Assembly: GCF_025642155.1 (NCBI RefSeq)
Contig: NZ_CP106798.1
Span: 1,798,001-1,862,000, forward strand
Reading direction: 5' to 3'
From: Streptomyces sp. HUAS 15-9
GTDB lineage: Bacteria; Actinomycetota; Actinomycetes; Streptomycetales; Streptomycetaceae
DNA length: 64,000 bases
Positions 2,997-63,169 of the stretch are shown here, piece by piece. The position numbers and the translations under genes are program-made. Position 1 is the stretch's first letter. Each line of letters starts with the position of its first letter. The notes beneath the pieces were generated by a model, which was not told where the DNA came from, made no database searches, and was given only the letters and a program-made list of their open reading frames with translations.

Positions 2997-3007
2997 GTGA
3001 TGGATCG

Positions 3008-5734: not shown

Positions 5735-5759
5735 CCGGGCGCACCTCCTTGGGGACGAT

Positions 5760-6628: not shown

Positions 6629-10144
<3,516 letters not shown>

Positions 10145-10372: not shown

Positions 10373-10427
10373 GACGGGAAAACGACACCGCGTGACGGCG
10401 GTCGACGGGGACGGAGGCAGTACGGCG

Positions 10428-11192: not shown

Positions 11193-11242
11193 GCGCCGCA
11201 CAACGAGAGAGCCGGAAGAGAAAGAGCCGGAAAACGACGGGA

Positions 11243-11266
11243 CCGGAACGCTGAGCGGCGTTCCGG
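11243..11266 (+). terminator. Terminator after gylR
   Basis: A perfect 9-bp stem (11243-11251 with 11258-11266), 6-nt loop, 50 bp past the gylR stop. It separates gylR from the glpF promoter region. Confidence 0.65.
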
Positions 11267-11415
11267 CCTTCGCCATACCCTGAAATGGACATAACGGACG
11301 AACGCCATCGTTCGGCGCTCGAAGATCGATAACTCGCCGCGATCAATAACGATCAGGTTTTCGATAACAGAACTCTTGACGCGCCTGTAACGCCGGAGCA
11401 AGACTCCCGTCCATC

Positions 11416-11432
11416 GGTCGGCATTGTCGAAC
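11416..11432. promoter_or_regulatory. Candidate GylR operator in the glpF promoter region
   Basis: It shares TCGGCATTGTCGAAC with the site before gylR and lies 130 bp before the glpF start. The 369-bp gap 11193-11561 also holds TTCGGCGCTCGAA at 11311-11323, a possible second half-conserved site, and a -10-like TAGAGT near 11451. The spacing fits a repressed promoter with a long leader. Footprinting with purified GylR would decide. Confidence 0.65.
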
Positions 11433-11561
11433 ACCTACCGGCAATACGCGCTAGAGTGTGACAACGCCAAGGACCGGTTTCGCTCTCACCCCCGAGGGCG
11501 CCAGAACCCCCGGAGGGACCCGGGGTTCGGCTTCCCTGGACGAAGGACAAAGGAGTCGCGG

Positions 11562-12356
11562 GTGTCCAGCTCCGACATCTTCATCGGCGAGACCATCGGT
11601 ACCGCCATACTCATCCTGCTCGGCGGCGGCGTGTGTGCCGCTGTGACCCTGAAGGCCTCCAAGGCCCGTAACGCCGGTTGGCTCGCCATCACCTTCGGGT
11701 GGGGTTTCGCCGTCCTGACGGCGGTCTACACCTCGGCACCGCTCTCCGGTGCCCACCTCAACCCGGCCGTGACCCTCGCGCTCGCGATCAAGGACCACGA
11801 CTACAGCAACCTGCCCACCTACTGGGGCGGTCAGGTGCTGGGCGCCATGATCGGCGCGACCCTGGTCTGGGTGGCCTACTACGGTCAGTTCCGCGCGCAC
11901 CTCACCGACAAGGAGATCGTCGGTGGTCCGGGTGCGCAGGCCACGACGGCCAAGGCCGTCGAAGCCCAGGAGAAGGGCGCGGGCCCGGTCCTGGGTGTCT
12001 TCTCCACCGGTCCCGAGATCCGGCACGCGGTGCAGAACCTCGCGACGGAGATCATCGGAACGATCGTCCTCGTCCTCGCGGTCCTCACGCAGGGCCTCAA
12101 CGACAAGGGCAACGGCCTGGGCACCCTGGGCGCCCTGATCACCGCCTTCGTGGTCGTCGGTATCGGTCTGTCCCTCGGCGGCCCGACCGGCTACGCGATC
12201 AACCCGGCCCGTGACCTCGGTCCGCGTATCGTGCACGCCCTTCTGCCCCTGCCCAACAAGGGCGGCTCCGACTGGGGCTACGCCTGGATCCCGGTGGTCG
12301 GTCCCCTGATCGGCGCCGCGATCGCTGCGGGCATCTACAACGTCGCATTTGCTTAA
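11562..12356 (+). CDS. glpF: Glycerol facilitator (aquaglyceroporin)
   Basis: A protein of 264 residues of the MIP family, which lets glycerol diffuse across the cytoplasmic membrane. Both half-repeat pore motifs are present: GAHLNPAVT (about residue 65) and AINPARD (about 215). Six hydrophobic segments are visible. GTG 11562 is supported by AAAGGAG at 11550-11555; the longer in-frame start lies in the operator region. It is the first gene of glpF-glpK-glpD (gyl operon). An Ala/Lys/Glu-rich loop between the halves is long but typical of Streptomyces. Confidence 0.95.
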
Positions 12357-12445
12357 AGAGCACCGAGCTTCGTCTTCGAGCACCGAGCCTCACAGCACGC
12401 GTCGTACGTACAGCCCTCATAACCACGGAATCCCAGGAGCACACA

Positions 12446-13984
12446 GTGACCGACGCCCACACGGCCGGCCCCTTCATCGCGGCCATCGACCAGGGCACGA
12501 CCTCCAGCCGCTGCATCGTCTTCGACCGGGACGGCCGCATCGTCTCCGTCGACCAGAAGGAGCACGAGCAGATCTTCCCGAAGCCGGGCTGGGTCGAGCA
12601 CAACGCCAATGAGATCTGGACCAACGTCCAGGAAGTCGTCGCCGGAGCCATCCAGAAGGCCGGCATCACCCGTGACGACATCAAGGCCATCGGCATCACC
12701 AACCAGCGCGAGACCACCGTGCTGTGGGACAAGAACACCGGTGAGCCCGTCCACAACGCCCTCGTCTGGCAGGACACCCGCACCGACGGGCTCTGCCGGG
12801 AGCTGGGCCGCAACGTCGGCCAGGACCGCTTCCGCCGCGAGACCGGCCTCCCGCTGGCCTCGTACTTCTCCGGGCCCAAGGCCCGCTGGCTGCTCGACAA
12901 CGTCGAGGGTCTGAAGGAGCGCGCCGAGGCGGGGGACATCCTCTTCGGCACCATGGACACCTGGGTCATCTGGAACCTGACCGGCGGTGTCAACGGCGGC
13001 CACCACGTCACCGACGTGACCAACGCCTCCCGCACCATGCTGATGAACCTGCACACCATGCAGTGGGACGAGAAGATCGCCGAGTCGATCGGCGTGCCGC
13101 TGCAGATCCTGCCCGAGATCCGCTCCTCCGCGGAGGTCTACGGCGAGGTCACCGGCGGCAAGCTGGGCGACCTGATCGGTGGCATCCCGGTCGCCTCGGC
13201 GCTCGGCGACCAGCAGGCGGCCCTGTTCGGCCAGACCTGCTTCTCCGAGGGCGAGACCAAGTCCACCTACGGCACCGGCACCTTCATGGTGATGAACACC
13301 GGTGACAAGATCATCAACTCCTACGCGGGCCTGCTGACCACGGTCGGCTACAAGATCGGCGACCAGCCGACCGTGTACGCGCTGGAGGGCTCGATCGCCG
13401 TCACCGGCTCGCTGGTGCAGTGGATGCGCGACCAGATGGGCCTGATCTCCACCGCTGCCGAGATCGAGACGCTCGCGCTCTCGGTCGAGGACAACGGCGG
13501 CGCCTACTTCGTACCGGCCTTCTCCGGCCTGTTCGCCCCGCACTGGCGCTCCGACGCCCGCGGTGTGATCGCCGGCCTGACCCGGTACGTCACCAAGGCG
13601 CACCTCGCCCGCGCGGTCCTGGAGGCCACCGCCTGGCAGACCCGCGAGATCGCCGACGCCATGGTCAAGGACTCCGGCGACGAGCTGGTGGCCCTCAAGG
13701 TCGACGGCGGTATGACGTCCAACAACCTGCTGATGCAGACCCTCTCCGACGTCCTGGACGCACCCGTGGTGCGCCCGATGGTCGCCGAGACGACCTGCCT
13801 CGGCGCCGCCTACGCCGCCGGCCTCGCCGTCGGCTTCTGGTCCAGCACCGACGAGCTGCGCGCCAACTGGCGCCGGGCCGCCGAATGGACCCCCAACATG
13901 GACGCGGAGACCCGCGACCGTGAGTACAAGAACTGGCTCAAGGCCGTCGAGCGGACCATGGGCTGGATCGAGGACGAGGACTGA
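12446..13984 (+). CDS. glpK: Glycerol kinase
   Basis: A protein of 512 residues, the normal length. It phosphorylates glycerol to glycerol-3-phosphate with ATP. FGGY-kinase hallmarks: [14 protein letters not shown] at the N-terminal phosphate-binding loop, [11 protein letters not shown], the adenosine motif [14 protein letters not shown], and the catalytic Asp in [14 protein letters not shown] 12446 follows AGGAG. It lies 89 bp after glpF and 47 bp before glpD, all in one direction, so the three genes are probably co-transcribed. Confidence 0.97.
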
Positions 13985-14031
13985 GCGGCCCGGACCGCCC
14001 AGCCAACTCTGACTAGGAGTAAGAACCCGAC

Positions 14032-15648
14032 ATGACCAGTCAGTCCACCCTGCAGTCCGTGCCTGCCCTCGGGACGCACCCGGCCTCCGGCTCCCACCCG
14101 AGCCGCGCCGAAACCAGGGAGCAACTCTCCAAGGCGTCGTACGACCTTCTCGTGATCGGCGGCGGCATCCTGGGCATCTCCACCGCCTGGCACGCCGCGC
14201 AGTCCGGACTCAGGGTGGCTCTGGTCGACGCCGGCGACTTCGCCGGCGCCACCTCCTCCGCCTCCTCCAAGCTCCTCCACGGCGGTCTGCGCTACCTGCA
14301 GACCGGCGCGGTGAAGCTGGTGGCGGAGAACCACTTCGAGCGCCGTGCGGTCTCCCGCCAGGTGGCCCCCCACCTGGCGAACCCGCTCACCTTCTACCTC
14401 CCCGTGTACAAGGGCGGGCCGCACGGCGCCGCGAAGCTCGGAGCGGGCGTCTTCGCCTACTCCGCGCTCTCCGCCTTCGGTGACGGTGTCGGTCACCTGC
14501 TCAGCCCCGCGAAGGCCGCGCAGGACGTACCGGAGCTGCGCACCGAGAACCTCAAGGCCGTCGCCGTCTACGGCGACGACCAGATGAACGACTCGCGCAT
14601 GGCGCTGATGACGGTCCGCGCGACCGTCGAGGCGGGCGGGGTCGTCCTGAACCACGCCGAGGTCACCGGCCTGCGCTTCACCCAGGGCCGGGTCACCGGC
14701 GCCGACCTCAGGGACCGGGTCTCCGGCGAGGAGTTCGGCGTCAACGCCCGCCTGGTACTGAACGCGACCGGCCCCTGGGTCGACCACCTGCGCCGTATGG
14801 AGGACCCGAATGCCGCGCCGTCCATCCGCCTCTCGAAGGGCGCGCATCTGGTCCTGAAGCGGACCTCGCCGTGGAAGGCCGCGCTCGCGACCCCCATCGA
14901 CAAGTACCGCATCACCTTCGCGCTCCCCTGGGAGGACATGCTCCTGCTCGGCACGACCGACGAGGAGTTCGAGGGCGACCCGGCGGACGTCGCGGTCAAC
15001 GAGAAGGACATAGCCCAGATACTCGACGAGGCCGCCTTCTCCGTCCGCGACCAGCAGCTCGACCGGTCCCTCATGACCTACGCCTTCGCGGGCCTGCGCG
15101 TGCTGCCGGGCGGCCCCGGCGACACCGCCAAGGCCAAGCGCGAGACCGTGGTGACCGAGGGCAAGGGCGGCATGCTGTCCGTCGCGGGCGGCAAGTGGAC
15201 CACCTTCCGGCACATCGGCCGCACGGTGATGCAGAAGCTCGAAGCGCTGCCGGGTCACCCGCTGGGCGAGGACTTCGAGCCGATCTCCTCGCTGCCGAAG
15301 AAGCTGCCGCTGCCCGGTGTCGCCAACCCGCGTGCCGTCGCCCACCGCCTCCTGGTGGACAACCCGGCGCCCGGCCCGCGCATGGCCGCCGACACCGCCA
15401 AGCACCTGGCCACGCACTACGGTTCGCTGGCCTTCGACATCGCCCGCCTGGCCAACGAGAATCCGGAGCTGGGCGAGCGCGTCCACCCGGACGCGCCGGA
15501 GATCTGGGCGCAGGTCGTCTACGCCCGTGACAACGAGTGGGCCGAGACGCCGGACGACGTGCTGCGCCGCCGTACGACGCTGACGATCCGCGGCCTGGCC
15601 ACGGACGAGGTCCGCGCCAAGGTCCAGGACCTGCTCGACAAGAAGTAG
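14032..15648 (+). CDS. glpD: Glycerol-3-phosphate dehydrogenase, FAD-dependent
   Basis: A protein of 538 residues. It oxidises glycerol-3-phosphate to dihydroxyacetone phosphate at the membrane and passes electrons to quinone. The FAD-binding Rossmann motif is LLVIGGGILGISTAWHAA (about 40-57), followed by the family signature SSKLLHGGLRYL; a C-terminal GlpD helical domain ends the protein. AGGAG lies 11 nt before ATG 14032. It completes the pathway begun by GlpF and GlpK. Confidence 0.96.
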   Translation: MTSQSTLQSVPALGTHPASGSHPSRAETREQLSKASYDLLVIGGGILGISTAWHAAQSGLRVALVDAGDFAGATSSASSKLLHGGLRYLQTGAVKLVAENHFERRAVSRQVAPHLANPLTFYLPVYKGGPHGAAKLGAGVFAYSALSAFGDGVGHLLSPAKAAQDVPELRTENLKAVAVYGDDQMNDSRMALMTVRATVEAGGVVLNHAEVTGLRFTQGRVTGADLRDRVSGEEFGVNARLVLNATGPWVDHLRRMEDPNAAPSIRLSKGAHLVLKRTSPWKAALATPIDKYRITFALPWEDMLLLGTTDEEFEGDPADVAVNEKDIAQILDEAAFSVRDQQLDRSLMTYAFAGLRVLPGGPGDTAKAKRETVVTEGKGGMLSVAGGKWTTFRHIGRTVMQKLEALPGHPLGEDFEPISSLPKKLPLPGVANPRAVAHRLLVDNPAPGPRMAADTAKHLATHYGSLAFDIARLANENPELGERVHPDAPEIWAQVVYARDNEWAETPDDVLRRRTTLTIRGLATDEVRAKVQDLLDKK

Positions 15649-15725
15649 GCGCTCGGTGCCGGCCAACTCCCCCTGACCGGGTCGGCACCGTCGGACCGGC
15701 CCTCTCCGCACCGGGGCCGGGACAC

Positions 15726-15763
15726 GAGAGGGGCGGCTCCACGCCGATGGAGCCGCCCCTCTC
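15726..15763 (+). terminator. Strong terminator of the glycerol operon
   Basis: A perfect 16-bp stem (15726-15741 with 15748-15763), 6-nt loop, followed by TCTTT. It lies 77 bp after the glpD stop. Confidence 0.85.
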
Positions 15764-15808
15764 TCTTTGGCCGAGGGGGAGCCGTGCGGCGGCCCCATAA
15801 TGTGGCTG

Positions 15809-15823
15809 AGACATCGGATGTCT
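15809..15823. promoter_or_regulatory. Palindromic operator ahead of the FadR-like regulator
   Basis: AGACATCGGATGTCT is a perfect 15-bp palindrome. Including flanks (CTG/GAG) it extends to 21 bp with one mismatch. It lies 20 bp before the ATG, just after a -10-like CATAAT near 15795, so it should cover the transcription start. GntR-family regulators usually bind such a site to repress themselves. Confidence 0.65.
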
Positions 15824-15843
15824 GAGCGACTGGGAGGCCCGCC

Positions 15844-16515
15844 ATGGCAGTCACCGATGAGGCGATCGAGAAGATCAAGGACATGATCGTCTCCGGTGCG
15901 CTGCGCCCCGGCGACCGGCTGCCCAAGGAGAGTGAACTCGCCGCCGGGCTCGGGCTGTCGCGCAACTCCCTGCGGGAGGCCGTACGTGCCCTGTCGCTGA
16001 TCCGGATCCTGGACGTGCGGCAGGGCGACGGCACGTATGTCACCAGCCTGGACCCGCAGTTGCTGCTGGAGGCGATGAGCTTCGTCGTCGACTTCCACCG
16101 CGACGACACGGTGCTGGAGTTCCTCGCCGTGCGCCGCATCCTGGAGCCGGCCGCGACCGCGATGGCGGCCTCCCGAATCAGTGAGCGGCAACTGGACGCG
16201 CTCTCCGCCCAGTTGGACGCCCTCGGAGCGGCGCCCTCGGTGGAGGAGCTGGTCGCCTGCGACCTGGAGTTCCACCGGGGGATCGTGCAGAGCGCCGGCA
16301 ACTCGGTGCTGTGCTCGCTGCTCGACGGTCTGTCCGGGCCCACCACCCGGGCCCGGGTCTGGCGCGGGCTGACCCAGGAGGACGCGGTCGGGCGCACGCT
16401 GCGTGAGCACCGGGCGATCCTGGCCGCGCTGTGCGACCGGGACGCGGAGGCGGCGCGTTCCTGGGCGACCGTGCACATCGCGAGCGTCGAGCAGTGGCTG
16501 CGCAGCTCTCTGTGA
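15844..16515 (+). CDS. GntR-family regulator, FadR subfamily
   Basis: A protein of 223 residues. The N-terminal winged helix (about 1-65) contains IKDMIVSGALRPGDRLPKE, ELAAGLGLSRNSLREAVRAL and VRQGDGTYV. The all-helical FCD effector domain (about 85-215) has metal-ligand candidates in CDLEFHRGIV and LREHRAIL. FCD regulators often sense carboxylic acids. GGGAGG precedes ATG 15844. It probably regulates itself through the adjacent palindrome; other targets cannot be seen, and its link to the glycerol operon or parJ is only positional. Confidence 0.9.
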   Translation: MAVTDEAIEKIKDMIVSGALRPGDRLPKESELAAGLGLSRNSLREAVRALSLIRILDVRQGDGTYVTSLDPQLLLEAMSFVVDFHRDDTVLEFLAVRRILEPAATAMAASRISERQLDALSAQLDALGAAPSVEELVACDLEFHRGIVQSAGNSVLCSLLDGLSGPTTRARVWRGLTQEDAVGRTLREHRAILAALCDRDAEAARSWATVHIASVEQWLRSSL

Positions 16516-16704
16516 ACGTCCTGTGCGGAACGGGCGTGAATCCCCTGTGGAAAACCGGTGGGGCCACCGTTCGCCGCGGGGTGTTCGAGGGTGGCGAACG
16601 GGGCAGTGATCCGTTCACTCCCCCGTGCAAGGGGGCTGCGGGCGCCCCCGCCGGACGCCGTAAGGTTGGGACGTACGCGAGGGCACGTCGGAAGGAGGCG
16701 CTGG

Positions 16705-50335: not shown

Positions 50336-51289
50336 TCACGGCTCCGCGTCCGTCTCCTCCTCCCAGTCCACCGTCACCACGATCTTGCCGCGGGTCCGGC
50401 CCTCCTGGTTCATGCGGTGGGCGTCCGCCGCCCGCTCCAGCGGGAGCGTCTCGGACACATGCACGCTCACCGCCCCCTGTTCGACCAGCTCGGACAGTTT
50501 GCGCAGGTCCGCCGCGTCGGGGCGCACGAAGTGGTAGCGGCCGCCGTAGCTCAGCACCTCGGGGTCGGCGATCGACACCAGTCGGCCCTCGGGCGCGAGC
50601 AGGTTGGCCGAGATCCGCAGCGTGTCGCCGCCGATGGTGTCGAACGCCGCGTCCACTCCCTCGGGCGCCAACCCCCGCACCCGCTCGGCCAGACCACCGC
50701 CGTACACGACCGGTTCGCCGCCCAGGCCGCGCACGAAGTCATGGTTGTGCTCGCTCGCCGTACCGATGACCCGGGCGCCGAGGTGGGCCGCGATCTGGAC
50801 GGCGATCGAGCCGACCCCGCCCGCGGCCGCATGCACCAGGACGGTCTCGCCCCGCTTGACCTCCAGGACCTTGACGAGCGACTGGTAGGCGGTGAGCCCG
50901 GCCAGCGGCAGTCCGGCGGCCTCCTCGAAGGAGACGTTGCGCGGCTTGCGGGCGAGGGTGCGCACCGGTGCGGCGACGTACTCGGCGAAGGTGCCGCGGG
51001 AGAGGAAGTCCTCCCGGACGTAGCCGACGACCTCGTCGCCGACGGTGAACTCCGTGACGGCGACGCCGGGCTGTACGACGACCCCGGAGACGTCCCACCC
51101 GGGGATCACCGGGAAGACGGTGTCCAGGACGCCGTCCAGGTGGCCCTCGCGGCACTTCCAGTCGACGGGGTTGACGGCCGCCGCGCGCACCTTCACCAGC
51201 ACCGAGTCGGGGCCGACCTTGGGGTCGCGCACCTCGCCGTACTCCAGCACCTCGGGTCCGCCGTAGCGGCTGTAACTGATGCCCTTCAT
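50336..51289 (-). CDS. NADPH:quinone oxidoreductase-like alcohol dehydrogenase
   Basis: A protein of 317 residues of the zinc-free MDR group. N-terminal catalytic part (VRAAAVNPVDWKCREG, VIPGWDVSGVV), then the NADPH Rossmann motif LVHAAAGGVGSIAVQIAAHLGA (about 140-160). No structural zinc Cys cluster is present, as in quinone oxidoreductases. ATG 51289 follows AGAGGG. It is convergent with the DUF202 pair. Confidence 0.9.
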   Translation of the reverse strand: MKGISYSRYGGPEVLEYGEVRDPKVGPDSVLVKVRAAAVNPVDWKCREGHLDGVLDTVFPVIPGWDVSGVVVQPGVAVTEFTVGDEVVGYVREDFLSRGTFAEYVAAPVRTLARKPRNVSFEEAAGLPLAGLTAYQSLVKVLEVKRGETVLVHAAAGGVGSIAVQIAAHLGARVIGTASEHNHDFVRGLGGEPVVYGGGLAERVRGLAPEGVDAAFDTIGGDTLRISANLLAPEGRLVSIADPEVLSYGGRYHFVRPDAADLRKLSELVEQGAVSVHVSETLPLERAADAHRMNQEGRTRGKIVVTVDWEEETDAEP

Positions 51290-51425
51290 GGCACCGACCC
51301 TCTGGGGTAGTCGGGCGCCACGCAACCGGGATGCCCCGATATGTGCCGTTCGCGTGGCAGCCTGTCCGACGTCATCACCTCATACCACCGACGCCATCAC
51401 CCCGTACCACCGAAGGTGAGCATCC

Positions 51426-51725
51426 ATGACCACCCTTCACCAGGAACACACCGCCCACGGCACCCACGTCCACGGCGCGGGCTGCGGACACACCGCCGTT
51501 CCGCACGGCGACCACGTCGACTACGCGCACGACGGGCATCTGCACCGCGAGCACGACGCGCACTGGGACGAGTGCGAGCCCACCGAGCACATCACGCACG
51601 AAGATCACGACCACCAGCACGGCGCGGGCTGCGGACACGGGCGCGTGCGCCACGGCGACCACGTCGACTATCTGCACGACGGCCACCGGCACGCCGAGCA
51701 CGACGGCCACTGGGACGACCACTGA
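51426..51725 (+). CDS. Histidine-rich, internally duplicated small protein
   Basis: A protein of 99 residues, over a quarter His. It consists of two similar units (about 13-48 and 62-97): HGAGCGH..V.HGDHVDY.HDGH.H.EHD.HWD. Each has one Cys flanked by His and acidic residues, so it should bind Zn2+, Ni2+ or Cu+. There is no signal peptide, which suggests a cytosolic metal buffer or chaperone. The start ATG 51426 follows GAAGGTGAG. No Zur-type box was found upstream. The duplication is visible in the DNA as well (CACGGCGCGGGCTGCGGACA twice). Confidence 0.8.
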   Translation: MTTLHQEHTAHGTHVHGAGCGHTAVPHGDHVDYAHDGHLHREHDAHWDECEPTEHITHEDHDHQHGAGCGHGRVRHGDHVDYLHDGHRHAEHDGHWDDH

Positions 51726-51823: not shown

Positions 51824-51839
51824 CATACCGACCGGTCGG
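51824..51839. promoter_or_regulatory. TetR-type operator before the APH-ACAD operon
   Basis: CATACCGACCGGTCGG contains the perfect 12-bp palindrome CCGACCGGTCGG and lies 44 bp before the kinase start. It matches 13 of 16 positions with the site at 57550-57565 before the SDR-FadD-TetR operon. Confidence 0.7.
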
Positions 51840-51882
51840 CATCATGAGTCGCGTCTTGTAAATCCGTTCGTAGGAGCGACGT

Positions 51883-52905
51883 ATGAGCCCCGACCATCCG
51901 CCCGGACTCGACCTGGACCGGCTGCGCGGCCTGCTCGACCGTGAACGGCCCGGTCTGGTGGACGGCCCCCTGACCGGCCGGCTGATCGAGGGCGGACGGT
52001 CGAACCTCACCTACGCGCTGTCCGACGGCACGTCGAAGTGGGTCGTACGGCGTCCCCCGCTCGGCCATGTCCTGGCCACCGCGCACGACATGAAGCGCGA
52101 GCACCGGGTGATCAGCGCGCTGCACCCGACGAATGTGCCCGTGCCGCGTCCGGTGCTGCTGTGCGAGGACGAGGAGGTGCTCGGGGCGCCCTTCTACGTC
52201 ATGGAGTTCGTCGAGGGCACGCCGTACCGCACCGCCGACCAGCTCGCGCCGCTGGGTCCCGAGCGCACCCGCAACGCGGTGCTCTCCCTGGTCGACACCC
52301 TGGTCGAGCTGCACGCGGTGGACCCCGCCGAGGTGGGCCTGGCGGACTTCGGCCGTCCCGAGGGCTTCCTGGACCGCCAGCTGCGCCGCTGGGGCAAGCA
52401 GCTGGACGCCTCCCGCAACCGCGACCTGGCCGGCATCGACGAGCTGCACGCGGCGCTCGGCCGGCAGCTGCCGCACTCCCCCGCGCCCGCCGTGGTGCAC
52501 GGCGACTACCGGCTCGACAACGTGCTCATCGGGTCCGACGACAAGATCAAGGCAATCCTCGACTGGGAGATGTCGACCCTCGGTGACCCGCTCACCGACC
52601 TGGGCCTGCTGGTGATGTACAGCATGCCGCTGAGCATGCCCGACTCGCCCGTCTCCACCACCGCCGAGGCCGCCGGGCACCCCGCTCCGGCCGAGCTGAT
52701 CGAGCGCTACGCCACGCGCTCCGGGCGGGACGTCTCCGCCGTCTCCTGGTACACGGCCTTCGCCTGGTTCAAGCTCGCAGTGATCCTGGAGGGCATCCAC
52801 TACCGCTACACGCTGGGCCAGACGGTCGGGCGCGGCTTCGACCGCATCGGCGACCTCGTGCCCGTCTTCATCCACCACGGACTGACCACTCTTCAGGAAG
52901 GCTGA
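51883..52905 (+). CDS. APH-family kinase, ACAD10/11 N-terminal-like (LvaA-like)
   Basis: A protein of 340 residues of the aminoglycoside-phosphotransferase fold: RRPPLGHVLATAHDMKREH (ATP-binding Arg/Lys region), the catalytic loop VVHGDYRLDNVLI (about 205-217) and ILDWEMSTLGDPLTDLG with the metal Asp. It is 5 bp before an ACAD gene; in human ACAD10/11 the two are fused, and in the Pseudomonas levulinate pathway LvaA-type kinases phosphorylate 4-hydroxyacyl-CoA. I infer the same role here. AGGAG precedes ATG 51883. Aminoglycoside resistance is unlikely. Confidence 0.85.
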   Translation: MSPDHPPGLDLDRLRGLLDRERPGLVDGPLTGRLIEGGRSNLTYALSDGTSKWVVRRPPLGHVLATAHDMKREHRVISALHPTNVPVPRPVLLCEDEEVLGAPFYVMEFVEGTPYRTADQLAPLGPERTRNAVLSLVDTLVELHAVDPAEVGLADFGRPEGFLDRQLRRWGKQLDASRNRDLAGIDELHAALGRQLPHSPAPAVVHGDYRLDNVLIGSDDKIKAILDWEMSTLGDPLTDLGLLVMYSMPLSMPDSPVSTTAEAAGHPAPAELIERYATRSGRDVSAVSWYTAFAWFKLAVILEGIHYRYTLGQTVGRGFDRIGDLVPVFIHHGLTTLQEG

Positions 52906-52910
52906 CCGGC

Positions 52911-54122
52911 ATGGACTTCGCGTTCGACGCACGCACCGAGGAGCTGCGCGGCAAGCTGCTCGCCTTCATGGACGAGTACGTCTACCCGGCGGAGGCGGTG
53001 GCGGAGGAGCAGCGCGCGCGGCTGGCCTCGCCCTGGGACACGCCCGCCGTGGTGGAGGAGCTGAAGGCGGAGGCGCGCAGGCAGGGCCTGTGGAACCTCT
53101 TCCTGCCGGACGAGCACGGCGCCGGGCTCACCAACCTCCAGTACGCCCCGCTGGCCGAGATCACCGGCCGCTCGCCGCACCTGGCGCCCACCGCCACCAA
53201 CTGCGCCGCGCCCGACACCGGCAACATGGAGGTGCTCGCGCAGTTCGGCGACGAGCAGCAGAAGAAGCAGTGGCTGGAGCCGCTGCTGGCGGGTGAGATC
53301 CGCTCGGCGTTCGCGATGACCGAGCCGGAGGTGGCCTCCTCGGACGCCACCAACATCACCACGCTCATCGAGCGGGACGGCGACGAGTACGTCATCACCG
53401 GGCGCAAGTGGTACATCTCCGGGGCGATGAACCCGGACTGCAAGATCCTCATCGTGATGGGCAAGACCGACCCCGACGGGCCGGACATCCGCCGTCAGCA
53501 GTCCATGATCCTGGTCCCGACCGACACGCCGGGTGTCACCATCGAGCGGGCGATGCAGGTCTTCGGCTACGAGGACCACTCGCACGGCGGCCACGCCGAG
53601 GTCTTCTTCGATCACGCGCGCGTGCCGGTGTCCAACCTGATCGGCGAGGAGGGCAGCGGCTTCGCGATCGCCCAGGCGCGCCTGGGTCCGGGCCGTATCC
53701 ACCACTGCATGCGGCTGATCGGCATGGCCGAGCGGGCGATCGAGCTGATGTGCCGCCGGGCCGTGTCCCGCACCGCCTTCGGCAAGGCGCTGGCCCAGCA
53801 GGGCGTGGTCCACAACTGGATCGCGGACGCCCGGGTCGCGGTCGAACAGCTGCGGCTGCTCGTCCTGAAGACGGCCTGGCTGATGGACACGGTCGGCAAC
53901 AGGGGCGCCCACACGGAGATCCAGGCCATCAAGATCGCCACGCCGCGTGCGGTCGTCGACATCATCGACCGCGCGATCCAGCTGCACGGCGCGGGCGGCG
54001 TCAGCCAGGACTTCCCGCTGGCCGAGCTGTACGCGGCGGCCCGCACCCTGATGATCGCCGACGGCCCGGACGAGGTCCACCAGCGCTCACTGGCCAGGCG
54101 CGAGCTGAAGAAGTACCTGTAG
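52911..54122 (+). CDS. Acyl-CoA dehydrogenase, ACAD10/11 type
   Basis: A protein of 403 residues. FAD-binding and fold signatures: AFAMTEPEVASSDATNITT, ITGRKWYISGAMNPDCKI, and a C-terminal helix bundle ending in GAGGVSQDFPLAELYAAART and LMIADGPDEVHQ, a pattern characteristic of the ACAD10/11 branch and not of short/medium-chain enzymes. With the kinase gene 5 bp upstream it should convert a phosphorylated hydroxyacyl-CoA or a branched/long acyl-CoA to an enoyl-CoA. GGAAGG precedes ATG 52911. Confidence 0.92.
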   Translation: MDFAFDARTEELRGKLLAFMDEYVYPAEAVAEEQRARLASPWDTPAVVEELKAEARRQGLWNLFLPDEHGAGLTNLQYAPLAEITGRSPHLAPTATNCAAPDTGNMEVLAQFGDEQQKKQWLEPLLAGEIRSAFAMTEPEVASSDATNITTLIERDGDEYVITGRKWYISGAMNPDCKILIVMGKTDPDGPDIRRQQSMILVPTDTPGVTIERAMQVFGYEDHSHGGHAEVFFDHARVPVSNLIGEEGSGFAIAQARLGPGRIHHCMRLIGMAERAIELMCRRAVSRTAFGKALAQQGVVHNWIADARVAVEQLRLLVLKTAWLMDTVGNRGAHTEIQAIKIATPRAVVDIIDRAIQLHGAGGVSQDFPLAELYAAARTLMIADGPDEVHQRSLARRELKKYL

Positions 54123-54456: not shown

Positions 54457-55074
54457 TTACGGCCGCAGCGCGCGCAGCAGGAGGTCCGCCAGGTGGTCGG
54501 CGACCTCCTGGGGGCTCAGGGGGCCGCCCGGGCGGTACCAGGTCGACAGGTGGTGGACCGAGCCGAAGTGGTAGTCGACGACGAGGTCGGCCGGGGTCGC
54601 CGTGGAGAAGACGCCCTCCTTCTGGCCCTCCTCGATGAGCGCACGGAAGCGTTCGTGGTAGCGCCGGCGCTCGGCGCGCACCTGCTTGTTCTTCTCGGGG
54701 CTCAGATGGTGCATCGAGCGGAAGAAGATCATCGCGTCGTCGAGGTTCTCGATCGTCGTGACGACCACGTCCGCCGCGGCGGCCCGCAGCCGCTTCTCCA
54801 CCGGCTCGTCCGCGCCCGCGAAGGCGTCGAGCCGCTCCTGCTGGACGCGCAGCACGCGCGCGTACACCTCGTGCAGCAGGTCGTCCTTGGACCCGAAGTA
54901 GTGGTACAGCGCCCCCTTGGTGACGCCCGCCGCCTCGACGATCTCCTGCACCGAGGTGCGGTCGTATCCCTGCTCGGCGAAGAGCCGGGTGGCGGCGGCA
55001 AGGAGCCGCTGCGGAACAGGAGCCCCGTCCCCGTCCGTCGTCCTGGGCACTGCCGCCACCTGCCTTTCCTTCAT
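54457..55074 (-). CDS. TetR-family regulator of the adjacent acyl-CoA genes
   Basis: A protein of 205 residues. The N-terminal helix-turn-helix (about 22-68) reads LLAAATRLFAEQGYDRTSVQ, EIVEAAGVTKGALYHYFGSK; the C-terminal ligand domain is helical. The start is 3 nt past the fadD stop, so it is the last gene of an SDR-fadD-tetR operon. The similar operators before SDR and before the APH-ACAD operon are its most likely targets, with an acyl-CoA as inducer (inference from the family, e.g. FadR/AcdR-like TetR proteins). Confidence 0.88.
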   Translation of the reverse strand: MKERQVAAVPRTTDGDGAPVPQRLLAAATRLFAEQGYDRTSVQEIVEAAGVTKGALYHYFGSKDDLLHEVYARVLRVQQERLDAFAGADEPVEKRLRAAAADVVVTTIENLDDAMIFFRSMHHLSPEKNKQVRAERRRYHERFRALIEEGQKEGVFSTATPADLVVDYHFGSVHHLSTWYRPGGPLSPQEVADHLADLLLRALRP

Positions 55075-55077
55075 GCC

Positions 55078-56745
55078 TCACCGGCTCTCGTGCGCTCGGG
55101 AACGAAGTTCCCGACGGAGGATCTTCCCACTCGCGGTCTTGGGCAAGTCGGGCAGTATCTCCACCTGGCGCGGGTATTTGTAGGCCGCCAGTCTCTCCTT
55201 GCAGTAGACGGCAAGTGCGTCGGGGTCGGTTTCGGCACCCGGACGAAGGCTGATGTAGGCCTTGACAGTCTCCCCACGGTATCCGTCCGGCACCCCGACG
55301 ACGGCCGCCTCGCGCACCGCCGGGTGCGTGTAGAGCACGTCCTCGACCTCGCGCGGCCACACCTTGAAGCCGGACGCGTTGATCATGTCCTTCTTGCGGT
55401 CGACGACGTACACCCAGCCCTGTTCGTCCATGAACCCGATGTCGCCGGTGCGCAGCTCGCCGTCCGGGAAGGTCTCGGCGGTCTCCTCGGGGCGCCGCCA
55501 GTAGCCGGGCACGACCTGGGGGCCGCGTACGACGATCTCGCCCTGTTCGCCGAAGGGGACCTCGGCGCCCTGGTCGTCGAGGATGCGGACGACCGAGTCC
55601 GGGCCGGGCACGCCCACGGCCAGGGTCCCGGAGACCGGGTCCACGGGCGCCTCCAGGCCCGGCGGCACGGAGGCGCAGGGCCCGCTGCACTCGGTGAGCC
55701 CGTAGCCGGTGCGGATGTAGGGGCCGAAGCCGGCGCGGAACTTCTCGACCAGGGCGGGCGGCACCGGGGCGCCGCCCGAGGAGAGGTTCACGAAGGAGGC
55801 GAAGTGCTCCGGGGTGCTGTCCGGGTGGGCGGCGAGCGCCATGTAGGCGGTGGACGGGCCGACCGTGTAGTGCGGGCGGTGCTCGGCGAACATCTCCAGG
55901 ACCAGGCCGGGCTCGAAGCGGTAGGCGAGCACCAGAGTGCCCGCGCTGTTGAGGCAGGCGCCGAACTGGCAGACCATCCCGGTGATGTGGAACAGGGGCG
56001 CGAGGGCGTAGTAGACCGGCGCCTCGGGCAGGGCCAGGCCGGTGCGCTGCCGCTCGGCGCTGAACATGATGTTGCCGTGCGTGTTGGTGGCGCCCTTGGG
56101 GGTACCGCTGGTGCCCGAGGTGTAGCTGATCAGGGCGATGTCGGCGGGGCCGGGGTCGCCTCCCTCGGGTGCCGTGCCGCCCTGCCGGGCGACGGTGACG
56201 AGGTCGTCGGCGTCGGCGGCCGCGGGCAGCCGCTCGAAGGTCAGCACGCGCGCGTCGTCGCGGGTCTGGAAGTCCAGCTCGCAGGCGGTGAGCACGATCC
56301 GCACCGGCGACGCGGCGGCCGTCTCGCGCAGATACGACTCCCAGGCCCGGTCGGTGCAGATCAGCGCGGCCACCTCGCCGTCCCGCAGGACGTGGGCGAC
56401 CTCCGCCGACTTGTACATCGGGTTGACCGGGACGACGGTGGCTCCGGCCTTCCAGGCGCCCAGGACGGCGAGCACGAAGTGCGGGGTGTTCTGCAGCAGG
56501 ACGGCGACCCGGTCGCCGCGCTCCAGGCCGCGGGCGGCGAGATGGCCGGCAACCGAGTCGCTCAGCTCGTCGACCTCGCGGTAGCTGAGACGGCCGTCGA
56601 AGTAGGCCAGGAAGGCACGGTCCGGGGCCTCGGCGACCGCGCGGCGCAGCGCGTGCACGAGGGAGTCGGCCGGGGCGACGGGGGCGCGCTGGACCTCGTT
56701 GAGAAGGCTCAGCCAGGGCTTGGCCGCATAGCGGGATCCGGTCAC
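55078..56745 (-). CDS. fadD: Acyl-CoA synthetase (FadD-like, AMP-forming)
   Basis: A protein of 555 residues of the ANL family. P-loop-like motif ALISYTSGTSGTPKGAT (about 200), the adenylate motif GYGLTECSGPCA, hinge-region LRTGDIGFMDEQGWVYVVDR and the catalytic Lys in KTASGKILRREL near the C-terminus. It activates a carboxylic acid as acyl-CoA. GTG 56745 follows GGGAGG and overlaps the SDR stop by 4 bp. The acid used is unknown; context suggests a hydroxy or fatty acid. Confidence 0.92.
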   Translation of the reverse strand: MTGSRYAAKPWLSLLNEVQRAPVAPADSLVHALRRAVAEAPDRAFLAYFDGRLSYREVDELSDSVAGHLAARGLERGDRVAVLLQNTPHFVLAVLGAWKAGATVVPVNPMYKSAEVAHVLRDGEVAALICTDRAWESYLRETAAASPVRIVLTACELDFQTRDDARVLTFERLPAAADADDLVTVARQGGTAPEGGDPGPADIALISYTSGTSGTPKGATNTHGNIMFSAERQRTGLALPEAPVYYALAPLFHITGMVCQFGACLNSAGTLVLAYRFEPGLVLEMFAEHRPHYTVGPSTAYMALAAHPDSTPEHFASFVNLSSGGAPVPPALVEKFRAGFGPYIRTGYGLTECSGPCASVPPGLEAPVDPVSGTLAVGVPGPDSVVRILDDQGAEVPFGEQGEIVVRGPQVVPGYWRRPEETAETFPDGELRTGDIGFMDEQGWVYVVDRKKDMINASGFKVWPREVEDVLYTHPAVREAAVVGVPDGYRGETVKAYISLRPGAETDPDALAVYCKERLAAYKYPRQVEILPDLPKTASGKILRRELRSRAHESR

Positions 56746-57506
56746 CTGGTCGCCTCCCACTTCTGCTGGATGTGGTTCATGTTCGTCAGCCAGTGGTCGG
56801 GGTCGGTGGCCCGCGCCTGGTAGTACCCGGCGACCTCCGGGTGCGGCAGGATCAGGAAACGGTCGTCCTCGATGCCCTTGAAGAGGGCGTCCGCGACGGC
56901 CTCCGGCTCGATCGCGGTCGGCTGGAGGACCAGGTCGCCCGCACTGCCGGAGGCGGTGAGCATATCGGTGCGGACGCCCTGCGGGCAGATCGCGTGGACC
57001 TTGAGGCCGCGGTGGCGGTACGTCAGCGACAGCCACTCGGCGAAGGAGTAGGCGCCGTGCTTGGTGACGCTGTAGGGGGCGGCGCCGATCATGGTGAGCA
57101 GGCCGGCGGCGGAGACGGTGGAGACGAAGCGGCCGCTGCCGCGCTCCAGCCAGGCCGGGAGCAGCTCGTGGGCGGCACGTACATGGGCCATGACGTTGAC
57201 GTCCCAGGCCTGTGCCCAGACCGTCTCCCCGGCCGCCTCGGAGCCGCCGGAGGCGAGGCCCGCGTTGGCGCAGTAGATGTCGACCGTGCCGCCGAGTGCC
57301 TCACGGGCCGCTCCGATGATCGCGGAGGCGTCGCCGGGGACCGCGATCGCGCCAATCTCGTCGGCGACGGCCCCGGCCTTGGCCGCGTCCAGGTCGTTGA
57401 CGACGACCCGGGCGCCCTCGGCGGCGAACCGGCGGGCCAGCGCGGCCCCGATGCCTCCGCCCGCTCCGGTGACGACCACTCCCGCGTCCTGCACGGCTTC
57501 CACCAT
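56742..57506 (-). CDS. Short-chain dehydrogenase/reductase
   Basis: A protein of 254 residues. Cofactor motif VVVTGAGGGIGAALARRF (about 10-27), NAG in CANAGLASG, catalytic Ser in VSTVSAAG and YxxxK in PYSVTKHGAYS, with the usual Tyr-X3-Lys as YSVTK. It should oxidise or reduce a hydroxy/keto group with NAD(P). It is the first gene of the SDR-fadD-tetR operon, with a TetR-type operator 44 bp upstream of its start. Confidence 0.93.
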   Translation of the reverse strand: MVEAVQDAGVVVTGAGGGIGAALARRFAAEGARVVVNDLDAAKAGAVADEIGAIAVPGDASAIIGAAREALGGTVDIYCANAGLASGGSEAAGETVWAQAWDVNVMAHVRAAHELLPAWLERGSGRFVSTVSAAGLLTMIGAAPYSVTKHGAYSFAEWLSLTYRHRGLKVHAICPQGVRTDMLTASGSAGDLVLQPTAIEPEAVADALFKGIEDDRFLILPHPEVAGYYQARATDPDHWLTNMNHIQQKWEATR

Positions 57507-57549
57507 CGGTCTCCTTCGAAGCGACGCGACTCGGCTCTGACGCGCCAGA

Positions 57550-57565
57550 CTAACCAGTCGGTATG
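57550..57565. promoter_or_regulatory. TetR-type operator before the SDR-fadD-tetR operon
   Basis: On the minus strand the site reads CATACCGACTGGTTAG, 44 bp before the SDR start, overlapping a -10-like TAGTCT. It matches 13 of 16 bases with the operator at 51824-51839. Confidence 0.65.
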
Positions 57566-57642: not shown

Positions 57643-58878
57643 ATGCGCCTGTCAAGACGAGGTCTCCTGGCATCGGCGACGGCGGTGGCCGTACCGCCCG
57701 CGCCGACGCCGGCCGGGGCCGAGCGCCACGGGCGGCTGCGCACCGGCTTCGAACGCCTCGCCGCCGACGGATACGCCCTGTTGGAGGGAGAGCGCGTCGG
57801 TATCGTCACCAACCCGACCGGTGTCACCAAGGACGTACGCCACATCGTGGATGTGATGCATGCCGACCCGGGCGTGCGGCTGACCGCCGTCTTCGGCCCC
57901 GAGCACGGTTTTCGCGGTACCGCGCAGGCGGGCGGCTCGGAGGGGCGCTACGACGACCCGGCGACCGGGCTGCCGGTCTACGACACCTACCTCAAGAGCG
58001 GCAGGCCGCTGGCGGACGTCTTCACCGCCTCCGGCGTCGACACGGTCGTCTTCGACATCCAGGACGTCGGGGCGCGCTTCTACACCTACATCTGGACCCT
58101 GTACGACTGCATGGAGGCGGCGCAGCTCGCGGGCAAGCGGTTCGTGGTGCTCGACCGGCCGAACCCGGTGACCGGACGGTCCGCCCAAGGACCGGTGCTG
58201 CACAAGGAGTTGGCGAGCTTCGTCGGGCGGGAGCCGATCTCACAGGCGCACGGGATGACGGTCGCCGAGCTGGCGCGGCTGTTCAACGGGGAGTTCCTGA
58301 GCGCGCCGGTCGCGCTGGAGACCGTACTGATGACGGGCTGGAAGCGGTCGGACTTCCACGATGCCTCCGGGCTGCCCTGGGTGCCGCCGAGCCCCAACAT
58401 GCCGACGCCCGACACCGCCCTCGTCTACTCGGGGACGTGTCTTTTCGAGGGGACCAACCTCTCCGAGGGGCGGGGCTCGACGCGGCCCTTCGAACTGCTG
58501 GGAGCGGAGGGCATCGACGGGCGCTGGGCGGCCGCGGCGAACGAACTCGGGCTGCCGGGCGTGCGGTTCAGGGAGGCGTACTTCGCGCCCACCTTCTCCA
58601 AGTTCCAGGGCAAGACGATCGGGGGCGTGCAGATCCATGTGCACGACCGGGACGCGTACGAGCCGGTGCGTACCGGGATCGCGCTCCTGGTGAGTGCCAA
58701 GAAGGTCTGGAACGGCTTCGGTTGGCGGTCCGACAACTGGATCGACAAGCTCACGGGGTCCACCCGGGTGCGCACCGCGATCGACGCGGGTGCGGGCACG
58801 GACGAGGTGGTCGCCGGCTGGCAGGACGAACTGGCGGCGTTCCGGCGGATTCGAAAAGAATATCTGCTCTACAGGTGA
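57643..58878 (+). CDS. DUF1343 protein, NamZ-type exo-beta-N-acetylmuramidase
   Basis: A protein of 411 residues with a Tat-like signal (LSRRGLLASATAVA). The DUF1343 (GH171) signatures are GIVTNPTGVTKD, FGPEHGFRG (with the catalytic-type Glu-His), VFDIQDVGARFYTYIWTL and LDRPNPVTG. NamZ of Bacillus cleaves MurNAc from the non-reducing ends of peptidoglycan fragments, so this protein probably recycles or degrades cell-wall sugars outside the cell. GGAGG precedes ATG 57643. Confidence 0.9.
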   Translation: MRLSRRGLLASATAVAVPPAPTPAGAERHGRLRTGFERLAADGYALLEGERVGIVTNPTGVTKDVRHIVDVMHADPGVRLTAVFGPEHGFRGTAQAGGSEGRYDDPATGLPVYDTYLKSGRPLADVFTASGVDTVVFDIQDVGARFYTYIWTLYDCMEAAQLAGKRFVVLDRPNPVTGRSAQGPVLHKELASFVGREPISQAHGMTVAELARLFNGEFLSAPVALETVLMTGWKRSDFHDASGLPWVPPSPNMPTPDTALVYSGTCLFEGTNLSEGRGSTRPFELLGAEGIDGRWAAAANELGLPGVRFREAYFAPTFSKFQGKTIGGVQIHVHDRDAYEPVRTGIALLVSAKKVWNGFGWRSDNWIDKLTGSTRVRTAIDAGAGTDEVVAGWQDELAAFRRIRKEYLLYR

Positions 58879-60382: not shown

Positions 60383-63169
60383 TTACCGATGTGAGGTGTA
60401 CTCCACGACCTGCTGGAAGGTCGGGCGGTTCTGCCAGCTGATCTTGCCGTGTTTGATGCCGCCCAGGGTGCGCTGGACGATCGAGTCGGCGCACCACTGG
60501 TCGCCCGCCGAGCACTGGTCGTCGCCGGGGTAGACCTGGGCCGCGGTCAGGCCGGCCGCCGTCTTGAGCGTGTTGATCAGGGTGTCCCGGCAGGAGCTCA
60601 AGTCCCCCGCGCCGCAGTACTTCTGCGCGAGCCCGCCCTGCACGGACTCACCGAGCACCGCCCGGATGTCCTTGTCGACATAGCTCCACCAGCCGTACTG
60701 GAAGGAGCTGCCGGCGTGCGAGCCGGTCGGGCCGTGTCCGGCCGACGGGGCCTCGTCGATCGGCAGGTTGCTGGAGAAGGCGGTGTACAGGTCGCTGCCC
60801 AGGCCGGGTTCGAACTCGGCCTTCACCAGCAGTGGCCACCACGCGTCCAGGATCCGGATCGCGTCCGCGTTGGCGTAGGTCTTCGAACCGGCCGAGGTCT
60901 CCGTGCGCTTGGCGCCCGCCGAAACCCACGCCTGCAGCTTGCTCACCGCCGCAGCGGCCGTGGAGTCGGTCACCGGCGAGCTGTTGACGACCTTCAGCAG
61001 CTTCGGCAGCACGTCCTCGGCCCGCAGGTCCGCCAGCGCCGCGTCCGCCATCGCCTTCACCAAGGACGTCCGCGTCACCCCGCCGGCCGCGACCAGCTTC
61101 TTCACCCGGTCCTCCAGCAGGTTGCCGCGGTGCACCGACCCGTTGCCCCAGGGCGCGGTCGTGTAGTCCTTGGCCTGCTTGTTGTTCCAGGAGACGTAGT
61201 AGTCCTGGTCGACAGAGTTGGGGTGCGCGGAGGCCGGGGTGTAGTCGGCCGTGTTGGTGGCCGGGTTCCAGTTCTTCCACTCGTAGGCCGCCTGCCCCCA
61301 CACCGGGAACTCGGCGTCGACACCGCTCGCCCGCACCGGGTTGTCACCGCTGTTGTAGTACGCGGTGTGCTGGGAGTCGGCGTAGAACCAGTTGAAGGTG
61401 TAGTTGATGTGCTGGGCCGCGCTCTGGAAGTCCTTCGGGCCCTTGACGTAGTCGGGGTCGTTCAGCATCTGGAAGCCGATGATCGAGTCGGCCTCGTGCA
61501 GATAGGAGGAGCGCAGGGTGGTGTAGGCGACCTTTTTGCCGCCGGCTGTGGCGCGGTACTCGACCGGGCCGTATTTCGTCCGCCACACCCGCATCGTGTA
61601 CGACCCCGCCGCGGTCCCGTCGGCGGTCGTCGGCTTCCACGCGTTCTTCTGCTCGACCTTGTCCATGGCCGTGCAGGTGCCGTGGTACAGGTAGTGGTAG
61701 TCGTCCTGGCACAGCTCGACGGCGTAGCTGTCGATGATGTCCTGGCCGGAGGTCGTCGCGCTCCAGGAGTAGTCCTGGCCCCGGCCGAGTTCGACGTACA
61801 TGCTCAGCCCCGCGAAGGAGGCGCCGCGGGCGCTGATGCCCGGGCCCTGGATCTCCTGCAGCATGAGCAGCTGCGGGGCGAAGTAGCCGGTCTGCGGTCC
61901 GAAGACGGCGACCGGGTGGCCGCTCGCGGTGTACTTGCCGCTCACCACGAGGGCGTTGGACATACCGCGCTTGGCGGAGCTCAGGGTCGTGGCCGCCGCC
62001 GTGGCCGAGGCGCTGGTCGCGCTCGTCGTGCCCGCGCTGCCCGTACGGTCGTAGACCAGCGGTTCCTGGGTCACCGAACCCGCGTCGGGCAGGGCCTCGC
62101 CCTGGGGGCTGTCCGGCTTGGTCGCATACGGGAAGCTCTCGCCGTTGTGGACGGTCAGGACGGCCTCGGGGTCATTGCGCTCGCGGAAGGACTCCCAGAC
62201 CTTGGTGCCCTCCGCCACGCCGTACTTGGACTGCGCGGCGATGAGAGAGATCGCGTTGTTGACCTCACCGCCCCCGCCGGAGCCGAAGAGCGAGCCGATG
62301 ACCGAGCCCAGCGCCACCAGGTCGGTGATCTTGAAGTGGTCTATGGTGCCGGCGTTGGTGATCGAGTCCTTGTGCCCGGTCAGGACGTATTCGCCGGGAA
62401 AGTAACGACCGCTGTCGGAGGCGTCGATGTAGGCGTTGATGCCTGCGAGATAGGCGTTGGCGTCTGCGAGGGCCTGCTGACCGCGGGCGCCGTTGCCCGC
62501 GACAGCGTTGTCGATCTGGGCCTGCAGGTCGGCTTCGGTGTAGGGGGCGTTGCGGTAGAACTCCTGCTCAAGTCCCTGGTTGGCGGGCGCGCCGCCGGCG
62601 AACGTGGTCAGCTGGCCGCGCCCGACGTGCCGGAAGACGTCCATCAGCCACAGCCGGTCCTCGGCGGCGGCATACCCGGCGCCGAACTCCGTGCCGTATC
62701 TGGTGGTGCCGGTGATGTGCGGCACACCGGTCTTCTTGTCGCGGACGATCGTCACGTCGCCGCGGCCCGCCGGCTTCTCGGTGGAGGCGACCTGGTCGGA
62801 AGCGACCCCGAACGACGCGTCGTCGAAGAACGTGTTGATCTTCGCGTCGGTGATCCCGGAGTAGCCCGTGGCCAGGTCGGCATAGGGGCCGAGCTGGTCC
62901 TCGGCATGGTCGGGCTGGGTGCCGAAGATCTGGTTGAGGAGGATCTGGGCGAGGGTCGCGTTGCCGTTCTCGCCGGGCGGCAGGATGTCCGAGCACTGGC
63001 CGCCGCAGTAGTCATTGAAGGCCGTGGCCGCGGTGGCGGTCGCCTGGGTCAGCGGGGAGAGCAGACCCGCGATGAGCACGCATACGGATGCCGTTTTCAG
63101 GAACCCGGTGAGCTTGTGGGGAGTTCTCAGTCTGGTGAACAACGCGTTGCGTGGGGTGCGCCGTGCCAT
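60383..63169 (-). CDS. Secreted penicillin-acylase-family Ntn amidohydrolase
   Basis: A protein of 928 residues. It has a signal peptide (about 1-48, ending TATAATA). The alpha part contains VTIVRDKKTGVPHITG and AAEDRLWLMDVFRHVGRGQL, typical of the penicillin acylase/AHL-acylase family. The autocleavage site appears to be KRGMSNALVVSG: Ser after Met should be the N-terminal nucleophile of the beta chain. It likely cleaves acyl amides outside the cell, such as beta-lactam side chains, acyl-homoserine lactones or lipopeptides. AGGAG precedes ATG 63169. Confidence 0.93.
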   Translation of the reverse strand: MARRTPRNALFTRLRTPHKLTGFLKTASVCVLIAGLLSPLTQATATAATAFNDYCGGQCSDILPPGENGNATLAQILLNQIFGTQPDHAEDQLGPYADLATGYSGITDAKINTFFDDASFGVASDQVASTEKPAGRGDVTIVRDKKTGVPHITGTTRYGTEFGAGYAAAEDRLWLMDVFRHVGRGQLTTFAGGAPANQGLEQEFYRNAPYTEADLQAQIDNAVAGNGARGQQALADANAYLAGINAYIDASDSGRYFPGEYVLTGHKDSITNAGTIDHFKITDLVALGSVIGSLFGSGGGGEVNNAISLIAAQSKYGVAEGTKVWESFRERNDPEAVLTVHNGESFPYATKPDSPQGEALPDAGSVTQEPLVYDRTGSAGTTSATSASATAAATTLSSAKRGMSNALVVSGKYTASGHPVAVFGPQTGYFAPQLLMLQEIQGPGISARGASFAGLSMYVELGRGQDYSWSATTSGQDIIDSYAVELCQDDYHYLYHGTCTAMDKVEQKNAWKPTTADGTAAGSYTMRVWRTKYGPVEYRATAGGKKVAYTTLRSSYLHEADSIIGFQMLNDPDYVKGPKDFQSAAQHINYTFNWFYADSQHTAYYNSGDNPVRASGVDAEFPVWGQAAYEWKNWNPATNTADYTPASAHPNSVDQDYYVSWNNKQAKDYTTAPWGNGSVHRGNLLEDRVKKLVAAGGVTRTSLVKAMADAALADLRAEDVLPKLLKVVNSSPVTDSTAAAAVSKLQAWVSAGAKRTETSAGSKTYANADAIRILDAWWPLLVKAEFEPGLGSDLYTAFSSNLPIDEAPSAGHGPTGSHAGSSFQYGWWSYVDKDIRAVLGESVQGGLAQKYCGAGDLSSCRDTLINTLKTAAGLTAAQVYPGDDQCSAGDQWCADSIVQRTLGGIKHGKISWQNRPTFQQVVEYTSHR

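Follow-up and report, generated by a model that had tools for sequence, protein, structure and literature searches.

An ACAD11-like kinase and dehydrogenase pair of Streptomyces sharing a TetR-type operator with a convergent ligase operon

What would a kinase of the aminoglycoside phosphotransferase (APH) fold do directly in front of an acyl-CoA dehydrogenase (ACAD) in an actinomycete? This question is raised by a 64,000-nucleotide stretch of Streptomyces sp. HUAS 15-9 (contig NZ_CP106798.1, positions 1,798,001 to 1,862,000; hereafter the window), in which an open reading frame (ORF) for an APH-fold kinase of 340 aa (51883..52905, + strand) is followed by one for an ACAD of 403 aa (52911..54122, + strand). 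An earlier note on this DNA had placed the kinase gene 5 bp before the ACAD gene, and both the ORFs and Pfam agree: the kinase ends at 52905, the ACAD ATG follows its stop after 5 bp, and the two frames are separate. A GGAAGG overlapping the 3' end of the kinase gene could be the ribosome-binding site of the ACAD gene. We consider it likely that the pair is an unfused bacterial counterpart of ACAD11, that is, a 4-hydroxyacyl-CoA kinase plus a 4-phosphoacyl-CoA dehydrogenase/lyase, accompanied by a TetR-controlled operon for a FadD-like ligase and a short-chain dehydrogenase/reductase (SDR). Conserved residues and gene context point, as the most likely function, to ATP-dependent phosphorylation of 4-hydroxyacyl-CoA followed by loss of phosphate to give 2-enoyl-CoA.

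To which family does the dehydrogenase belong? The protein matched PF00441, PF02770 and PF02771, each above its cut-off. Against solved structures it scored 472.8 bits with 8v3u, 470.5 with 8v3v and 457.4 with 2wbi, all ACAD11, and 446.8 with 4hr3, whereas the best solved ACAD outside that set reached 145.1 bits. A FastTree of 103 rows split the kinase-linked and ACAD11-like sequences from lower-scoring ACADs (local support 0.948). With IQ-TREE on 44 chosen rows, a set with long branches among the outgroup rows and without LvaC, the ACAD10/11-like rows fell on one side of a branch with support 100/99, ACAD11 was nested among the bacterial members of that side, and the window ACAD grouped within a five-member actinobacterial branch (100/100). 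The placement in the ACAD10/11 branch claimed by the earlier note, for which it had named phylogeny as the refuting test, agrees with this topology.

The active site gave the same picture. According to the excerpts on which our use of PMC12440821 rests, D753 is catalytic in the ACAD domain of ACAD11 and R626, H634 and R637 bind the 4-phosphate; in our alignment these equal D384, R257, H265 and R268 of the window protein. The signature RLGPGR[IV]HHCMR was present in 119 and DGPDEVH in 116 of the 120 sequences that reached 400 bits, and the 23 sequences below 170 bits carried other motifs at the DGPDEVH position, mostly EGT or GAGT. The structures 8v3u and 8v3v differ exactly at the catalytic points (HGA in one, ANGP in the other). 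The motifs listed in the earlier note (HGDYRLDN, GVSQDFPLA and MIADGPDEVH) were recovered in the translations, and a plain fatty-acyl dehydrogenase was set aside on motifs. We conclude from scores, trees and alignment that the window ACAD belongs to the ACAD10/11 clade.

The kinase matched the Pfam APH family PF01636 with 196.9 bits and, among solved structures, scored 237 bits with 9o56, 177 with the ACAD11 kinase domain and 174 with 3dxp. In an alignment of 19 kinases its D208, N213 and R165 equal D220, N225 and R176 of ACAD11, and D227 was also noted in this protein. The excerpts of PMC12440821 assign roles to D220, N225, R86 and R176, with R86, beside the alpha-C Glu, and R176 contacting CoA. 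An RE pair is conserved in the window kinase (R72-E73), for which we counted the ACAD11 arginine as 84, against the published R86. From this alignment we conclude that the kinase keeps ACAD11-type catalytic residues.

Could the two genes be unrelated neighbours, an ordinary beta-oxidation dehydrogenase adjoining an APH-type antibiotic kinase? The APH fold is compatible with that, as are the annotations of the copies in S. cathayae (phosphotransferase family protein and acyl-CoA dehydrogenase family protein), but the clade and motifs of the ACAD, the operator described below and the constant adjacency of the pair within the genus all speak against it. So does the NCBIfam APH(3') model, which scored 37.8, far under its cut-off of 205, and on which a role in aminoglycoside resistance was rejected. 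We hold this explanation to be highly improbable. As for adjacency, 61 genomes of the genus were surveyed (kinase match E <= 1e-30, ACAD match E <= 1e-90); the kinase was found in 58 and the ACAD in 58, and it is the same three genomes (G035, G037 and G051) that lack each. The pair lies on one strand with the kinase first in 58 of 58 genomes, spaced by 5-87 bases in 57 of them and by 270 bases in G012, where the ACAD match is partial. The kinase match was partial or in two pieces in G041 and G043 and split over two contigs in G017.

What ties the pair to other genes? Directly downstream, on the opposite strand and convergent with it, lies an operon for an SDR oxidoreductase identified by domain match (254 aa; 56742..57506, - strand), a FadD-like acyl-CoA ligase with an AMP-binding domain (556 aa; 55078..56748, - strand, with the start codon of our choice) and a TetR regulator (54457..55074, - strand). 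The palindrome CATACCGACYGGTYNGY is common to the promoters of both units. Operator 1, CATACCGACCGGTCGGC (51826..51840, + strand; pattern TACCGACYNGTYNGY), and operator 2, CATACCGACTGGTTAGT (57549..57563, - strand), each stand 42 nt ahead of the respective start codon, that of the kinase and that of the SDR, and these 2 matches in the 64-kb window compare with 0 in 100 shuffles. At 20 of 20 genus loci (L140-L159), CATACCGACYGGTYNGY was present at both promoters, and the pair had a TetR and a window-type SDR no more than about 6 kb away. The SDR and FadD genes that the earlier note had seen close by are thus linked to the pair through the operator, with a qualification for FadD given below. Sharing of the operator suggests that the pair and the SDR-FadD-TetR operon would form one regulated pathway.

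The S. cathayae locus likewise has the operator at both promoters; its plasmid-borne kinase and ACAD are 90.0% and 91.6% identical to the window proteins. On that linear plasmid (L055), an IS3-family transposase gene stands on either side of the kinase, ACAD, TetR, SDR and both operators, which suggests possible mobility of the module. The operator site was not found in Winogradskya humida (L124) or Aeromicrobium (L122); in the former, SDR, kinase and ACAD form a single run, yet without the operator.

Taken by sequence alone, an operator match is not specific: the genome contains 11, against 4 for a reversed control pattern, and there are chance matches among the 11. Four stand at sensible promoters, namely the two window sites, a second locus treated below and an alpha/beta-hydrolase gene at C1:408986. 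At the last (L252, 15987), the operator directly precedes a second epoxide-hydrolase-like alpha/beta hydrolase, homologous to the hydrolase of the second cluster. Of the others, one, at C1:398442, stands just past a methyltransferase-domain gene, and one, at C1:321142 (L253, ~7142), may be due to chance since it falls within a PF06100 (MCRA) gene; this family includes fatty-acid hydratases yielding hydroxy fatty acids. The remaining five were read through a mechanical ORF list only.

Which regulator would act at these sites? The local TetR (TetR_N and TetR_C_24 domains) has 3vpr as its best solved relative (92.6 bits). The printed 3vpr segment occurs exactly in a TetR of the T. thermophilus HB8_001 plasmid that is 34% identical to the local protein, and we infer that 3vpr is TTHB023/PfmR because the plasmid gene order equals that listed for TTHB023 in PMC7022988. 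As far as the excerpted text of that paper goes, TTHB023 binds a palindromic consensus at nanomolar affinity, and its operon includes a putative ACAD, TTHB015, and a phosphotransferase, TTHB014. Of the 16 places of that consensus, the two sites of the window agree at 15 and 14. ACCGACCGGTCGGT stands just upstream of the Thermus TetR gene, which heads an operon with a phosphotransferase and an ACAD; this ACAD carries a DGPSEVH motif and fell within the ACAD10/11-like group in IQ-TREE. The two systems are thus alike in a TetR_C_24 regulator, the palindrome and an operon with ACAD and phosphotransferase. They differ in that the Thermus kinase and ACAD are only 27% and 41% identical to the window proteins and in that the Thermus genes form a single long operon, described as serving fatty-acid metabolism. 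By domain and structure matches, the local TetR is PfmR-like and probably represses both convergent operons via the shared palindrome.

The Thermus operon (L264, 6426-15128) contains a kinase-linked ACAD10/11-like dehydrogenase, a phosphotransferase, DUF6285 and a histidine phosphatase, and its role may be in a 4-hydroxy acid pathway, not in fatty-acid metabolism at large. A gamma-butyrolactone receptor was rejected as the identity of the local TetR: the ScbR model has a cut-off of 150, of which the protein reached 71 bits, and solved gamma-butyrolactone/A-factor receptors match only over about residues 21-77, the helix-turn-helix end.

How might these genes work together? FadD would convert a 4-hydroxy (or 4-oxo) acid to its CoA ester, and the SDR would interconvert oxo and hydroxy forms. 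The kinase would then transfer the ATP gamma-phosphate to the 4-OH with D208 as catalytic residue, and D384 and FAD of the dehydrogenase would drive phosphate elimination, yielding 2-enoyl-CoA for beta-oxidation. The PfmR-like TetR would hold both convergent operons down through the one palindrome, and its release would probably be triggered by one of the acyl-CoAs in this pathway. The bacterial 4-hydroxy-acid pathway proposed in the earlier note thus gains support from the clade, from the residues that handle 4-phosphoacyl-CoA in ACAD11 and from the shared operator.

Enzymes of this kind are already known, as LvaA/LvaC and ACAD10/11. Both domains of vertebrate ACAD11 (8v3u, 8v3v, 2wbi) align with the window proteins over most of their length and have the same catalytic aspartates and phosphate-binding residues, but ACAD11 is one peroxisomal chain (PMC12440821, excerpts), whereas the window has two genes, tied to TetR-linked operons with SDR and ligase. 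ACAD10 is a HAD-kinase-ACAD protein, and the window pair has no HAD gene beside it. In excerpts of PMC11342911, ACAD10 phosphorylates and then eliminates phosphate, separate bacterial kinase and ACAD orthologs each substitute for the matching ACAD10 domain in vitro, and ACAD10 and ACAD11 work without an added electron acceptor. LvaA and LvaC of Pseudomonas putida, as excerpts of PMC11342911 and PMC12440821 describe them, are a separate kinase and ACAD that act on 4-hydroxyacyl-CoA and are related to ACAD10/11. The likeness of the window pair to these two separate proteins lies in their described activities.

Is the locus then a levulinate operon proper, in which FadD would turn 4-oxovalerate into levulinyl-CoA and the SDR would supply 4-hydroxyvaleryl-CoA to the kinase and ACAD? 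By type, the four enzymes match LvaA, LvaC, LvaD and LvaE; LvaD and LvaE are the SDR and ligase of the lvaEDABC operon, and the window has an equivalent of each, in a convergent operon sharing the operator. The small LvaB gene lies between the lva kinase and ACAD genes, where the 5-bp gap of the window leaves no room for it. A TetR stands in place of the lva regulator, a convergent second operon is present, and the FadD is generic. The lva operon was not found among the Pseudomonas loci examined. The Pseudomonas kinase-ACAD clusters examined have the genes 48-114 bp apart, with no space for an intervening gene; kinase matches (E <= 1e-30) were present in 117 of 119 Pseudomonas genomes, mostly in open frames of 358-365 aa. 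DUF6285, which stands beside the Thermus kinase and whose link to LvaB is only our guess, has no member in the genome of the window strain. Levulinate as the substrate, which the earlier note had listed next to 4-hydroxy fatty acids for a growth test, is not specifically supported, and we think a levulinate operon very unlikely.

A different substrate for the same phosphorylate-then-eliminate chemistry deserves more weight, the hydroxyl lying elsewhere on the acyl-CoA or the acid being branched or polycyclic. The kinase belongs to a broad family: at Pseudomonas loci L238, L239 and L240 the kinase lies beside an SDR (at L238 also beside a histidine phosphatase) and no ACAD is labelled near it. 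Against another substrate, the phosphate site and the catalytic aspartate equal those of ACAD11 at each position compared. We consider this explanation unlikely, and 4-hydroxyacyl-CoA remains our preferred substrate.

Several observations nevertheless weigh against a 4-hydroxyacyl-CoA pathway. The kinase scores higher with 9o56, labelled merely aminoglycoside phosphotransferase and without a stated substrate, than with ACAD11 (237 versus 177 bits) and could therefore act on a different substrate. The SDR and FadD match general families only, with scores below curated cut-offs, and so give no hint of chain length. FadD was labelled at 16 of the 20 genus loci and missing from L146, L149, L155 and L157; a further genus locus, L160, has the pair with the kinase-side operator only, and no TetR, SDR or FadD was labelled near it. 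An aspartate at the catalytic position also occurs, as DGT, in 2 of the 23 low-scoring ACADs. The 14-mer ACCGACCGGTCGGT is, in the excerpts of PMC2770484, the inverted repeat that PaaR-dependent control requires at the phenylacetate genes of Burkholderia; the operator therefore marks a kind of TetR and is not specific to 4-hydroxy acids.

Finally, the gene-neighbourhood search proposed in the earlier note found the pair adjacent in nearly all genomes of the genus and far less regularly beyond it. Outside Streptomyces, a same-strand kinase lay within 400 bp of the ACAD at 17 of 80 named loci and anywhere in the locus at 37 of 80, some of these loci ending at a contig edge, so that adjacency there is the exception. 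Where adjacent, the pairs vary, with the kinase first, the ACAD first or an overlap of 3-4 bases (L053, L171). Among 198 genomes of the phylum, 76 had both genes, 6 the ACAD only, 7 the kinase only and 109 neither, in counts uncorrected for relatedness.

Does the same genome hold a related system? A second unfused cluster (L012, G000:C1:7403000-7422500, 1893-16670) lies 5.55 Mb from the window locus, with an operator at 1578. Its ACAD (C1:7412123) and kinase (C1:7414198) are 61% and 40% identical to the window proteins, and the SDR of the window is 46.5% identical to an SDR found there. The cluster also encodes thiolase, HAD, FadD, a nitronate monooxygenase-like protein, TetR, SDRs, enoyl-CoA hydratase, thioesterase and FadB; since HAD, kinase and ACAD, the three parts of ACAD10, are all present as separate genes, we call it ACAD10-like. 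Its ACAD grouped with Rhodococcus opacus PD630 in IQ-TREE, apart from the window ACAD, and is on that topology an old paralog. The operator of this locus sits between the alpha/beta-hydrolase and thiolase genes. Across 11 second-system loci (L012 and ten others), the operator was present in 6, exactly those with the hydrolase labelled, and absent from the other 5, some of which are different clusters. Three genus loci (L258, L259 and L260) show the second cluster with HAD, thiolase and ACAD, with no second-type kinase labelled within the stretch examined, and the second-type kinase is split in two pieces at L254 and L255. Where this kinase is missing or broken, the first-locus kinase may serve both systems.

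Other genes surround the pair. Divergent from the kinase, a zinc-binding dehydrogenase/quinone-oxidoreductase-like gene (50336-51325, - strand) has a labelled equivalent beside the pair at 14 of the 20 genus loci; its start has no operator, both matches of the window being placed elsewhere. Directly upstream of operator 1, a His-rich ORF of 99 aa (51426-51725, + strand) contains two repeats, the second ending HGDHVDYLHDGHRHAEHDGHWDDH, and looks metal-binding. On the other strand, about 80 bp past operator 2, starts a NamZ exo-beta-N-acetylmuramidase gene (57643-58878, + strand), and given this distance the TetR site could act there as well. A 928-aa protein (60383-63169, - strand) scores a weak 32.7 bits with the acylase PvdQ, for which the cut-off is 950.

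In the literature, judged from titles and the starts of abstracts with few subscription papers covered, we found no paper on this regulon; a search of similarly limited coverage found nothing linking ACAD11 with Streptomyces. The operator sequence occurs in 3 papers. We regard it as quite possible, if still tentative, that a 4-hydroxyacyl-CoA regulon extends across the genus, in which PfmR-type TetRs would control, through one palindrome, an ACAD11-like locus and, in some strains, an ACAD10-like one with HAD and a full beta-oxidation set, the Thermus PfmR operon likewise being a 4-hydroxy acid pathway. That the substrates include gamma-butyrolactone signals, which become 4-hydroxy acids on ring opening, seems very doubtful. 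If the regulon is real, breakdown of 4-hydroxy acids would be a core Streptomyces trait, reaching beyond levulinate-eating Pseudomonas, and the pathway would arrive with a ready-made regulator and operator that could be used as a 4-hydroxyacyl-CoA sensor. Streptomyces would also offer natural unfused forms of ACAD10 and ACAD11, with a free HAD on which the regulatory role of the HAD domain of ACAD10, a puzzling one, could be tested.

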